DNA from: Candidatus Adlerbacteria bacterium
GTDB lineage: Bacteria > Patescibacteriota > Minisyncoccia > Phycocordibacterales > SBAW01
DNA: 37,952 bases
NCBI GenBank assembly: GCA_903878285.1
Contig: CAIRHB010000010.1
Location: 1 to 37,952, forward strand
Reading direction: 5' to 3'
In this document: piece after piece, positions 85 to 3,464 of the stretch
Numbering within the stretch: position 1 is the first letter of the stretch
Layout of the letters: every line of letters begins with the position of its first letter
The notes under the pieces: model-generated
Database searches by the model: none
What the model saw: only the letters and a program-made list of their open reading frames with translations
What the model was told of the DNA's origin: nothing
Translations under genes and position numbers: made by a program

Positions 85-209
85 AAGATCATCGTCCAAA
101 GAAAGGGGGTTGGGTGCCTGTCCACAAATCATTGACAGATAAGAACATTCTGTTCTACATTGTTTGTAGACGATCTCCGAAACAACCTCGCAAGAAAGGA
201 TTCTGCGTT

Positions 210-1505
210 ATGTACAGAGAGTTAAAGTCTCCTGTTGCGGTCCAACTGGAACTAACGACAAGATGCAATGAAAGGTGCATCCATTGCTACAACCACTGGA
301 GAAGATCCTCCGAAGAAGACAGGACTTTGACCGAGGATGATGTCCGGCGAATCATCGAGAACCTCAAGGAGAGCGAAGTTCCAAATCTGCTCATCACAGG
401 CGGAGAACCGATGCTTTACCCCGACCTATTGATCCGCACACTTGAACTTGGGAGGGAAGCTGGCCTCAGGTGCTCGCTGAACTCCAATCTGACGCTCGTG
501 ACGCCAGAGCTTGCTCGAGAGCTGAAAAGGCTCAAGGTCGGCATACTGACATCGATCCTATCTTTTGACGAGAGACTGCACGATAAGCTCACAACCGTGC
601 GTGGTTCCTTCGACATGCTCGTCAAGGGAATCAGGTTGGTCAGGGAACACGAAATCCCCGTCGGCGCGAACATGGTCGTGATGCAAATGAATGTGGATCA
701 AATCTACGAGACAGGTAGGTTTATCCATAGTCTGGGCGTGACTGCGTTCCGGGCAACGAAAGTACATCCTGCTCAAGGATCCCCATGCTTCGAAAGGATC
801 AAGCTCCCTCCGGAACGCATTGTCGACATCTTCGACACCTTGATCAGATTGCGGGATGATCTCGGACTCGACGTCGATTCTCTGACCACCTACCCCACCT
901 GCCTCCTCAAGGATATGAGCCGCTACGGCCAATTCGTCTCGAGAAGGAGCTGTAGCGCTGGAAAGACTGGCTGCACAATCGGCGCGGACGGACAAGTTCG
1001 CCCGTGCGGCCATTCCGACAACACCTACGGCAACTCGATTGTCGAGCCGCTTCTAGAAATCTGGCCTAGATTGCGGGAGTGGCGAGACGGCTCGCTATTG
1101 CCAACGGAATGCAAAGAATGTAAGCATGTCATTCAATGCAGTGGCGGCTGTCGTATGGATTGCAAGCACTACGGCAACATCAGTGGGATGGATCCATACG
1201 CCCCGGGCAAAGACTTCGCGTACATACCCCAACAACGAGAGGAGGTCACGCCTCTTGATCCTGAATCGGCGCTGGTCGTTAACTCGACCCTTCGCTTGAG
1301 AATCGAGACATTCGGCACAGCACTGATTGTCGATGGGAACTTCAAATCAATCGTCACCTCTGACACGGCCGAATTGCTGGAGCAGCTACGGGGCACAACG
1401 TTCACGCTTGGCTCTATCTCTGCGGAGTATGGTCTTGAGGTGGACATGCTGCGCAAGTTCTTTGCCAGCTTGCACGCCTTGAGAGTCGTCTGCTTTGCTG
1501 GCTAG
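210..1505 (+). CDS. Radical SAM/SPASM peptide maturase with C-terminal PqqD-like domain
   Basis: Predicted 431-residue radical SAM enzyme. The SAM-cluster motif CNERCIHC gives C19, C23 and C26, followed by GGEP at 64-67. A SPASM domain for auxiliary 4Fe-4S clusters fits the family pattern: C248-x12-G-x4-C266, then C301-x2-C304-x5-C310-x3-C314, then C318. Residues about 355-431 look like a PqqD-type winged helix (RiPP recognition element), which would bind a precursor leader. SPASM enzymes with such domains usually crosslink ribosomal peptides through Cys or other side chains; the actual chemistry here is not known. The start at ATG 210 is preferred because AAGGA (196-200) sits 9 nt upstream. 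An in-frame GTG at 114 would add 32 unconvincing residues. Arg codons are largely AGA/AGG, unlike the core genes, which suggests transfer. A Cys-rich peptide gene follows 115 nt downstream. Confidence 0.88.
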   Translation: MYRELKSPVAVQLELTTRCNERCIHCYNHWRRSSEEDRTLTEDDVRRIIENLKESEVPNLLITGGEPMLYPDLLIRTLELGREAGLRCSLNSNLTLVTPELARELKRLKVGILTSILSFDERLHDKLTTVRGSFDMLVKGIRLVREHEIPVGANMVVMQMNVDQIYETGRFIHSLGVTAFRATKVHPAQGSPCFERIKLPPERIVDIFDTLIRLRDDLGLDVDSLTTYPTCLLKDMSRYGQFVSRRSCSAGKTGCTIGADGQVRPCGHSDNTYGNSIVEPLLEIWPRLREWRDGSLLPTECKECKHVIQCSGGCRMDCKHYGNISGMDPYAPGKDFAYIPQQREEVTPLDPESALVVNSTLRLRIETFGTALIVDGNFKSIVTSDTAELLEQLRGTTFTLGSISAEYGLEVDMLRKFFASLHALRVVCFAG

Positions 1506-1508
1506 TAC

Positions 1509-1538
1509 TTGTACTAAAATCTAAAATTGTGCTAGAAA
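1509..1538 (+). promoter_or_regulatory. Possible promoter for the Cys-rich peptide gene
   Basis: TTGTAC (1509-1514) and TAGAAA (1533-1538) are 18 nt apart, and the latter is preceded by TGC as in an extended -10. The stretch also holds an unused AAAGGAGG (1546-1553) with no start codon at normal spacing. A separate promoter would let the peptide be made in excess of its maturase. This is weak pattern evidence. Confidence 0.25.
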
Positions 1539-1620
1539 CAAACAAGAAAGGAGGCATCCTAGGAGTTCCCGATAAGGTTGAGCCGACCACTAAGCAACGT
1601 AAACAGCGAGGAGATAAACC

Positions 1621-1749
1621 GTGAAGACGCTGAATCTGGGTTTCGTCTCGATGGTCACCATCAAGGGGCACGAATCCGAATCCAGCTTGGGTTGCGATAA
1701 CTGCGATTGCAACTGCGACTGTTGGTGCGACTACGACAGGGGGAACTAA
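1621..1749 (+). CDS. Candidate RiPP precursor peptide, six Cys in 42 residues
   Basis: A GTG-initiated frame of 42 codons, with GAGGAG (1608-1613) 7 nt upstream. The N-terminal ~24 residues are Cys-free and leader-like. The C-terminal part has Cys at 25, 28, 30, 32, 34 and 36, i.e. CxxCxCxCxCxC, with Asp/Asn between them and one Trp at 35, ending DYDRGN. The gene lies directly after a radical SAM/SPASM enzyme and is closed by a strong hairpin, so the pair looks like a maturase/precursor unit. The Cys count recalls SCIFF peptides (six Cys in forty-five residues), and C25/D29 has the C-x3-D spacing of some ranthipeptides, but the overall spacing matches neither. Alternative: a small metallothionein-like metal-binding peptide. 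No homologue was checked. Confidence 0.72.
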   Translation: MKTLNLGFVSMVTIKGHESESSLGCDNCDCNCDCWCDYDRGN

Positions 1750-1761
1750 TCCACCAATGAT

Positions 1762-1783
1762 TGCGCATGAATCCTTATGCGCA
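1762..1783 (+). other. Small hairpin upstream of the terminator
   Basis: TGCGCAT (1762-1768) pairs with ATGCGCA (1777-1783) around an 8-nt loop. It begins 13 nt after the peptide stop and precedes a stronger hairpin, so it may protect or process the 3' end of the peptide mRNA. Confidence 0.4.
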
Positions 1784-1788
1784 GAACC

Positions 1789-1830
1789 GCCGGCTAACGG
1801 AAACGTTAGCCGGCTTCCCATTTAATTTGA
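1789..1830 (+). terminator. Terminator hairpin of the peptide locus
   Basis: A perfect 11-bp stem, GCCGGCTAACG / CGTTAGCCGGC, is closed by a GAAA tetraloop (1800-1803). It is followed by a T-containing tail (TTCCCATTTAATTT) rather than a pure U-tract. It separates the radical SAM/peptide unit from the next gene. Confidence 0.65.
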
Positions 1831-1837
1831 GGTATCA

Positions 1838-1843
1838 TATACT
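1838..1843 (+). promoter_or_regulatory. TATACT -10 box close to the ATG
   Basis: TATACT lies 9 nt before ATG 1853, with no Shine-Dalgarno site between, so the mRNA is probably leaderless or nearly so. The same arrangement recurs before many genes in this window. Confidence 0.5.
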
Positions 1844-1852
1844 GGACTATCT

Positions 1853-2701
1853 ATGAAAAATATCACGTTGAAGGAGGATTTTGATGCAGAGGTAGGTATT
1901 TTCTTTAATTTCTTGAACAGCAAAGAATATCCACAACATCGGAATATCATATTTTCTTGCTTCCCTGAATTGAAAGAAAAAATTAAGGCGAATGTCACAG
2001 ATGAAAAATCGGTTGTTACGGCATTCATACAAGAGAAAAGGACACACAACAAACAAGCTATCCAGCAATCGGTTGCCTTTGTTAAGCATGAGCTAGAACA
2101 AAAAGGAGAGAAGACGTTAGAAATACTCGCTCGGCTGATGGATTATGTATGGAAATCTCAAGAGGATCCCTACTTCTTGGTACCAACCATTTTCCCTCTG
2201 TCTCCCTTTAATAAGGATACATTCTTTTTCTCGATATACCCATCACTGCAAGGCAAAACAGAATATCCGAGAGTGTTGGCAGTTTCAGCTCATGAGATAT
2301 CTCACATGATACTTCTCGACATCTTGAAAGAGCGAAACATACAGATGGGACAAGAGCTAGTCTATTTTGTAAAAGAACTGATTGCTCCGGTGTTGGTATA
2401 TCAAGATGATTTCGACGGTATGTTCAAGAAACAAATCGTGGGAAACTACAATGTGTTGGAGGTCTATTTTGAAGAAGGCGGAAAGTCGGTAACGGCTTTC
2501 GATTATTTTCTTGCCATGTTCGCAAATAACAGAGCTGAGGGCAAGAAATTCAATGCATTCCTCGATGATATGATTTCTGTTTGTAGAAAAATAGAGCAGG
2601 AGATACAGGACAAGAGAGCGTTTGATGACGAATACGGCACACGAATACTAAAAGAGCCGGAACTACTGGAGAAATTTAGGGAGCCTATCGTGTTGATGTA
2701 A
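1853..2701 (+). CDS. Hypothetical protein with HExxH zinc-metalloprotease-like motif
   Basis: 282 residues, no signal peptide or membrane segment evident. The motif HEISH at 147-151, in a hydrophobic setting (LAVSAHEISHMILLD), is the classic zinc-binding HExxH. E175, 24 residues after the second His, could be the third ligand as in gluzincins. The rest of the protein is not recognised. The gene is clearly more AT-rich than the ATP synthase genes and uses AGA Arg codons, so it looks acquired. A protease beside a peptide-maturase locus could remove the leader, but a terminator separates them and it has its own -10 box, so this link is only a guess. Confidence 0.7.
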   Translation: MKNITLKEDFDAEVGIFFNFLNSKEYPQHRNIIFSCFPELKEKIKANVTDEKSVVTAFIQEKRTHNKQAIQQSVAFVKHELEQKGEKTLEILARLMDYVWKSQEDPYFLVPTIFPLSPFNKDTFFFSIYPSLQGKTEYPRVLAVSAHEISHMILLDILKERNIQMGQELVYFVKELIAPVLVYQDDFDGMFKKQIVGNYNVLEVYFEEGGKSVTAFDYFLAMFANNRAEGKKFNAFLDDMISVCRKIEQEIQDKRAFDDEYGTRILKEPELLEKFREPIVLM

Positions 2702-2948
2702 AGGGTTTTCACCACTCTAATCCAATACACTCATTGTGTATCTCTTGTTGCGCATCCGCTAGGCGCACTCTAGGGCTTTTCGTAGCATAGAGCTGCTCTG
2801 GTAATACTCCCAGAATCGGGAAATATAGCTTTTTACAGAGTCCAATGTTTTAATGGCTGTGTCCACTACTTCGCTCACTGTTTACAGACAGTCGCCGTGT
2901 TTCTTTTTTTGGCGTAATTCATGTACGCTGCCATCGGCTACGCACAAA
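2702..2948. other. Intergenic stretch with small hairpins, no gene seen
   Basis: Contains ATACAC/GTGTAT around a 5-nt loop (2725-2741), which may end the preceding transcript, then CTCTA/TAGAG (2768-2792) and TCCC/GGGA near 2807-2822. I found no tRNA-like cloverleaf, no convincing reading frame and no clear promoter for the next gene. Confidence 0.4.
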
Positions 2949-2962
2949 CAAGGAGAAAAACG

Positions 2963-3196
2963 ATGCTGCAACATCCGGAACCGAAGCAGGTATTGTACCT
3001 GGACTATCCCCTTGGTGATTCTAGGGACGCGCCCGAAGTGATCGAATACGTCGCGCGCATGTTCTCTGAACGAGGACTGCCCGTTGTGTTTTCTTTCTGC
3101 GGGATTGCCTACGAATTCAACGGCACAGAGACCGTGCCCGAATGTCTCGAAAAGTGGAGGTATCGGTACCACGTCTCCATGGATCTTGATGATTGA
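2963..3196 (+). CDS. Small hypothetical protein (77 aa)
   Basis: I do not recognise this protein. It starts at ATG 2963 behind AAGGAG (2949-2954) with 8 nt spacing. An upstream in-frame ATG at 2921 has no such site. It is soluble, rich in aromatic residues and ends in acidic DLDD; there are two Cys near the middle (SFCGIAYEF and VPECLEK). The strong Shine-Dalgarno site is unusual for this window and is shared with the other accessory small genes. A terminator follows 11 nt after the stop. Confidence 0.6.
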   Translation: MLQHPEPKQVLYLDYPLGDSRDAPEVIEYVARMFSERGLPVVFSFCGIAYEFNGTETVPECLEKWRYRYHVSMDLDD

Positions 3197-3207
3197 GACG
3201 CGAAAGA

Positions 3208-3258
3208 CCGCCGCTAAGCACGCTGTGCTTAGCGGCGGTTCGCTGTATTTATTTTTTA
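3208..3258 (+). terminator. Terminator between convergent small genes
   Basis: A perfect 14-bp stem, CCGCCGCTAAGCAC / GTGCTTAGCGGCGG, with a GCT loop at 3222-3224, is followed after a short gap by a T-rich tract (TATTTATTTTTT). It lies between genes ending at 3196 (+) and 3249 (-) and may serve both strands, though the tail favours the plus strand. Confidence 0.75.
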
Positions 3259-3425
3259 AGCGTACTAAACACCGCGCCCACACCTGCTACTTGTTTGGCG
3301 ACTTGGTCGACGATGGTGGTTTTGAACGGGTAGAGGAGGGAGTCGGGGCTGGCGTGGCTAGCGACCGCGGCGCTGCCGTAGCCGATGGCGGATAGGAGAA
3401 TGAGCGAGCCGATGATTGTTGGCAT
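3249..3425 (-). CDS. Small exported/anchored protein (58 aa), DUF5667-like fragment
   Basis: Minus-strand gene starting at the ATG complementary to 3423-3425, just 6 nt after TATACT (3437-3432 on the minus strand). The N-terminal ~25 residues form a hydrophobic signal or anchor helix (IIGSLILLSAIGYGSAAVAS). The segment SPDSLLYPFKTTIVDQVAKQ resembles the start of DUF5667-type domains ('GD-LYP-K...V'), usually found in much longer anti-sigma-like or secreted proteins. It may therefore be a remnant or a minimal version. It is divergent from atpB. Function unknown. Confidence 0.5.
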   Translation of the reverse strand: MPTIIGSLILLSAIGYGSAAVASHASPDSLLYPFKTTIVDQVAKQVAGVGAVFSTLKK

Positions 3426-3464
3426 ACGTTTAGTATATACCAACTTTCGCACACAGCCTTGGTG

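Follow-up and report, generated by a model that had tools for sequence, protein, structure and literature searches.

The window analyzed in this study, a 37,952-nucleotide stretch of a Candidatus Adlerbacteria contig, carries a cassette of three genes that encode a radical SAM/SPASM enzyme, a tiny Cys/Asp-rich peptide and an HExxH zincin-like protein. It is a real, conserved and mobile element, and with high probability a radical-SAM RiPP cassette. CPR bacteria combine tiny genomes with a dependence on other cells, and the host of the cassette is a very small, probably symbiotic bacterium; its 0.93-Mb (930-kb) Patescibacteria (CPR) genome gave a single match to PF04055, which is the maturase of the window. 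The genes follow one another on the forward strand, with the maturase at 210–1505, the peptide at 1621–1749 and the HExxH gene at 1853–2701. A first-pass annotation had described the enzyme and a 42-residue peptide with six cysteines, both of which were confirmed from the domains and the frame, and had ended the cassette at 1830, a limit that proved too short, the HExxH gene having been missed. No exporter gene is present in the cassette, and neither a C39 domain nor a C39 exporter was found in the genome. A modified peptide is very likely the product of the cassette.

The 431-aa product of 210–1505 was identified as a radical SAM/SPASM peptide maturase by its Pfam matches to PF04055 (3e-28) and PF13186 (1e-6), in agreement with its earlier assignment, and both domains were present in all 20 clade members. 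Alignment of 20 homologues revealed that the CX3CX2C cluster motif (C19/C23/C26) is invariant, as are six SPASM cysteines (C248, C266, C301, C304, C310 and C314) and C231. The SPASM cysteine pattern had previously been called complete, which does not hold for its seventh candidate, C319, as this residue varies among the same homologues. The nearest named relative of the maturase is 96% identical and is from Candidatus Adlerbacteria, consistent with a CPR origin; identity of the maturase to its clade homologues is 29–39%. SkfB was the nearest PDB sequence and also a Foldseek match, and the fold neighbors of the first 316 residues were ChlB with its leader, SkfB, anSME and SuiB, the top neighbor being ChlB 9gm3 (Z 20.7, 288 residues, rmsd 3.5). 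These structural searches covered mainly residues 1–316, and the AlphaFold2 model, which was built from four sequences, had a mean pLDDT of 63.6 with a poor SPASM region. The neighbors of the model are mostly peptide-modifying enzymes, which we counted as favoring a RiPP maturase. None of the NCBIfam maturase models scored above its own cut-off; the sactipeptide models were far below theirs and the PapB model scored 62.6 relative to a cut-off of 340.

The precursor peptide (1621–1749, forward strand) is a 42-aa frame with a GTG start that reads MKTLNLGFVSMVTIKGHESESSLGCDNCDCNCDCWCDYDRGN, and its six cysteines are C25, C28, C30, C32, C34 and C36. Directly upstream of the GTG is CGAGGAGATAAACC, and the Shine-Dalgarno region on the same strand (1607–1620, with GAGGAG before the start) is kept in the sister species; the peptide and its good ribosome-binding site are as first described. 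The peptide may be divided into a putative leader, MKTLNLGFVSMVTIKGHESESSLG, and a putative core, CDNCDCNCDCWCDYDRGN, with a border predicted from the sequence. Relative to the window, the frame of the sister species L002 carries synonymous changes and has lost 12 nt in frame within its Cys region, the four codons AAC TGC GAT TGC being absent from the L002 core; because of this deletion and the replacement of one further cysteine, the L002 precursor keeps three cysteines only. The dN of the peptide was 0.156, relative to 0.018 for the maturase. Immediately downstream, on the forward strand at 1762–1814, are two consecutive perfect hairpins of 9 and 11 bp (z = -6.4), the same hairpins being present in the sister species. 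These two strong hairpins are what had been annotated as a terminator; their T tract is poor and the terminator scan made no call, and they represent a possible terminator or transcript-processing element.

The third gene (1853–2701, forward strand) encodes a 282-aa HExxH(+Glu) zincin-like protein, a candidate leader peptidase whose motif reads HEISH. Its residues H147, E148, H151 and E175 occur without exception in 17 homologues encoded beside maturases, and this combination of HExxH with a downstream Glu ligand is of the gluzincin type and suggests a metallopeptidase. The window protein itself had no meaningful match in Pfam or NCBIfam, and its family profile had no credible match in the PDB; its structure model was kept out of the fold search because of its low confidence (pLDDT 50.5). 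The gene has a G+C content of 39%, relative to 55% elsewhere. Members of this family were also observed in other settings. A second homologue is present in the same genome on contig C44 (L131:2425–3213) with no adjoining radical SAM gene, and another, at L132:2588–5005, accompanies a peptide ending DNACMTECSDCPCPDGDCCTDY and a radical SAM protein of a different kind (450 aa, CNLDCDYC). A third radical SAM type (CxxxCxWCYA) is found near further Cys/Asp-rich peptides close to the core cassette at L090:4473–6192 and L061:1957–3937, the former with an HEIIH protein as well.

The co-occurrence of these genes was surveyed by a maturase profile search of 384 genomes of the class. A full-length maturase was matched in 16 (about 4%), all at 340 bits or more, while the remaining matches were below 180 bits; the maturases are therefore a discrete clade, with a clear gap in score to the other radical SAM proteins. 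Together with related loci and relatives, the profile matches made up 20 defining loci, all of which have a Cys-rich frame near the maturase. Most of these frames are within 300 bp, although in L064 and L066 the frame is about 1 kb away, past the HExxH gene, and the peptides of L062, L063 and L068 were found by eye, the automatic listing having missed them. An HExxH protein is encoded in 17 of the defining loci; L062 and L063 have a methyltransferase gene instead, and L004 has neither. As a separate observation, the peptides of the core maturases in L062 and L063 are very short and end in FCCQNCGT and FCCQSCGT, respectively. Another 380 genomes, sampled from the phylum, yielded nine more loci, none of which had contributed to forming the idea; seven of these (L090–L095 and L098) have both the peptide and the HExxH protein. 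The other two, L096, whose maturase is truncated, and L097, lack the pair of partners, and neither shows a clear peptide. In total, peptide and maturase occur together in 27 of 29 loci, and 24 of the 29 have the HExxH gene next to the maturase. By one fixed automatic criterion, an acidic Cys-rich frame lies within 500 bp in 19 of the 29 loci, and the density of such frames is 0.72 per kb within 500 bp of maturases compared to 0.125 per kb farther away. This frame density and the nature of the changes in the sister species demonstrate that the peptide frame is more than chance. The check proposed with the first-pass annotation, a conserved Cys-rich frame beside homologous maturases in CPR genomes, was thereby borne out.

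The precursors share features that extend beyond their location. A leader motif, (G/A)(F/Y/I/L)x(S/T/A/K/R/Q)(L/I/M/V), or GFxS(L/I)-like, was present in 13 of 24 leaders compared to 1.1 expected, a count that is somewhat optimistic as the motif was devised from the leaders on which it was scored; the maximum in 2000 shuffles was six leaders. Cysteines number 143 in 544 core residues and two in 666 leader residues, a contrast that is partly by construction since the border was placed at the Cys-rich part. The gaps between cysteines vary across the family (CxC 42, CxxC 38, CxxxC 18), and a fixed CxC spacing was rejected as a class signature. The claim of a new radical-SAM RiPP-like system is well supported in the CPR by the 27 of 29 loci, but not through spacing: the alternating CxC of the window peptide is real, yet CxxCxCxCxCxC does not define the class. 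What the family has in common is a cysteine followed directly by aspartate, along with the conserved leader motif. With the Cys positions fixed, Asp was found family-wide at +1 from Cys 57 times relative to 39.0 expected (z = 4.3) and was depleted at -2 (z = -3.1), whereas at +4 (CX3D) the count of 33 relative to 26.1 was not significant (z 1.9); these z values are upper limits, as related genomes contribute precursors that are not independent of one another. NCBIfam precursor models, including SCIFF, had no meaningful match for ten precursors at E up to 10. A short precursor gene with a conserved leader and a variable core thus lies beside the modifying enzyme, as in a RiPP cassette.

The C-terminal domain of the maturase (about residues 351–431; 1260–1502, forward strand) is a probable leader-binding RRE, as suggested by its AlphaFold2 fold and family profile. 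Residues 355–429 were modelled mostly with high pLDDT (about 88) as strands, three helices and a short last strand, consistent with a winged helix, and the weak matches of the family profile in the PDB were mostly winged-helix chains, among them the N-terminal part of SuiB (E 0.083). A PqqD-like C-terminus had been proposed previously, and the support for it comes from the predicted fold. Pfam PqqD had no match in this domain of the maturase or the scanned clade members, PF05402 was detected in 2 of 55 class genomes, both below the cut-off, and hhalign of the domain with PqqD proteins of a sister CPR family was not significant. That diverged sister family (L072, L073, L044 and L074) has a 330-aa SPASM maturase and an HExxH protein, and three of its loci have a separate PqqD-like protein or frame between the two genes, which Pfam recognizes at 1e-5 to 1e-6. 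Peptides in three loci of the sister family are 41–42 aa and end in a KCxGxCTCxCCK-type sequence. The reading of the cassette as an RRE-dependent RiPP system is more secure because this sister family has a separate, Pfam-recognizable PqqD-like protein.

Comparison with L002 also revealed that the cassette is within a horizontally exchanged island (about 120–3300). Most of the island matches L002 at 94–100% identity, with a dip to 88–91% at the peptide region (1600–2000), and its downstream flank is mostly 75–90% identical; therefore, the island moves horizontally. Before about 120 there is no homology to L002, the contig of the window starts at base 1 and the upstream genes differ between the genomes compared. 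The dS values relative to L002 were 0.12 for the maturase and 0.07 for the HExxH gene, compared to 0.60 for atpB just outside the island, and among 35 genomes of the genus, only 2 carry a close maturase. At 3249–3452 on the reverse strand, a 67-aa frame resembles the N-terminal part of a 170–180-aa gene located upstream of atpB in congeners that lack the cassette, and looks as if it had been cut by insertion of the island. A frame of 77–91 aa (2921–3196), situated in a stretch (2600–3200) with nearly 100% identity to the sister species, may also be part of the mobile island. Tree building placed a protein from a Clostridia MAG inside the CPR clade, which may reflect transfer or mis-binning. 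Viral contigs had no match, and plasmids and phages had only distant radical SAM proteins, with no DNA match in the plasmids.

Taken together, these results point to a minimal RiPP cassette and suggest how it might function. Translation of the small ORF would produce a precursor with an N-terminal leader bearing the GFxS-type motif and a Cys/Asp-rich core, and the RRE-like winged-helix domain of the maturase would hold the leader. The maturase would then cleave SAM reductively and abstract hydrogen from a core residue, most likely Asp, so that neighboring Cys thiols could form thioether crosslinks with the help of the SPASM clusters, after which the HExxH zincin would cut off the leader. We regard this explanation as probable. 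What the analysis demonstrates is the gene content, conservation, co-occurrence and horizontal movement of the cassette; leader binding, crosslink chemistry, proteolysis and any role in competition or host interaction are inferred. For the chemistry alone, the chances that the modification consists of Cys thioethers appear evenly balanced, with Cys-Asp thioethers the best guess. We advance more tentatively, as a possibility well short of even, a CPR-wide, horizontally mobile RiPP class whose radical SAM/SPASM-RRE enzyme links Cys to the Asp beside it (CX0D), a connectivity that the known sactipeptide and ranthipeptide patterns do not include, and whose dedicated partner is an HExxH zincin. Counted against the RiPP reading were the lack of a Pfam match and of a significant hhalign result for the RRE domain, the absence of an exporter, the three cysteines of L002, L096 and L097 with no clear peptide, and L004, L062 and L063 without the HExxH gene.

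One alternative is that the product is a metal-binding (metallothionein-like) or redox peptide, whose metal binding is tuned by a radical SAM modification other than a thioether, such as hydroxylation, epimerization, a C–C link or methylation. Such a peptide would chelate soft metals through the CxC/CxxC and Asp of its core, the cysteines are spaced differently from locus to locus, unlike a fixed ring pattern, and the nearest structure, ChlB, is from a cyclophane system with Asp/His hydroxylation (PMC12636437). However, Asp adjoins Cys beyond chance, and metallothioneins need no dedicated radical SAM enzyme, conserved leader or HExxH partner, and we consider this alternative rather unlikely. 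In a second alternative, the HExxH protein has no peptidase role and instead carries out a second modification, for example as an alpha-ketoglutarate/iron HExxH beta-hydroxylase acting on Asp. Such enzymes are known in RiPP pathways and can be radical SAM fusions (PMC12636437), the cores are Asp-rich, and the same HExxH family also occurs beside other radical SAM types. This role is nonetheless unlikely on the present evidence: TIGR04267 had no match in the genome up to E 10 or in the 17 HExxH members up to E 1, Peptidase_MA_2 matched three (and only three) of those members, and their invariant downstream Glu is as in gluzincins. Finally, the small ORF could be Cys-rich by chance and the enzyme could modify something else. 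Background DNA does contain short Cys-rich frames (0.125 per kb in a strict test, 0.45 in a loose one), but the presence in 27 of 29 loci, a leader motif, an in-frame indel, synonymous changes and ribosome-binding sites make this reading very improbable.

That a genome in which no second radical SAM protein was found carries a dedicated, mobile cassette for modifying peptides suggests that the product is worth its cost, perhaps in competition or host contact. The 27 precursor–maturase pairs make the chemistry open to co-expression and provide a defined leader and core rule for searches. No family or description of the cassette was found in NCBIfam, Pfam or the open-access literature, and its peptides seem to form a family of enzyme-modified products not described before, which within the radical-SAM RiPPs has a genuine chance of being a new crosslink class. 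Peptide natural products had been called rarely considered in CPR genomes; there is a precedent in the graspetides reported from CPR bacteria (PMC8939145), and no radical SAM RiPP was found described in the CPR in the open-access literature. The graspetide clusters are likewise RiPP clusters of the CPR, although they employ ATP-grasp ligases rather than a radical SAM enzyme (PMC8939145).

Three radical SAM systems invite closer comparison. Sactipeptides (SkfB, subtilosin and thuricin type) also have a Cys-containing precursor beside the maturase, and SkfB is the nearest match, but the extra domain of the cassette maturase is C-terminal and the cassette cores are acidic Cys/Asp repeats. The ChlB/ChlA system likewise combines a radical SAM enzyme, an HExxH protein (an alpha-ketoglutarate hydroxylase) and a small peptide, and produces a cyclophane scaffold with Asp/His hydroxylation (PMC12636437); the HExxH proteins of the cassette differ in having no TIGR04267 match, and its cores in being Cys/Asp-rich. 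Ranthipeptides (PapA/PapB, freyrasin type) resemble the cassette in their SPASM maturase, their several core Cys and Asp residues and their thioethers, which are proposed here for the cassette. PapB joins Cys to Asp in CX3D motifs and disfavors CX0D in nested variants (PMC9413430), whereas the cassette family, as a statistical trend over its precursors, is enriched in Asp at CX0D and not significantly at CX3D. Therefore, if thioethers form at its CX0D pairs, a family dominated by CX0D would have a different connectivity from that of the ranthipeptides.
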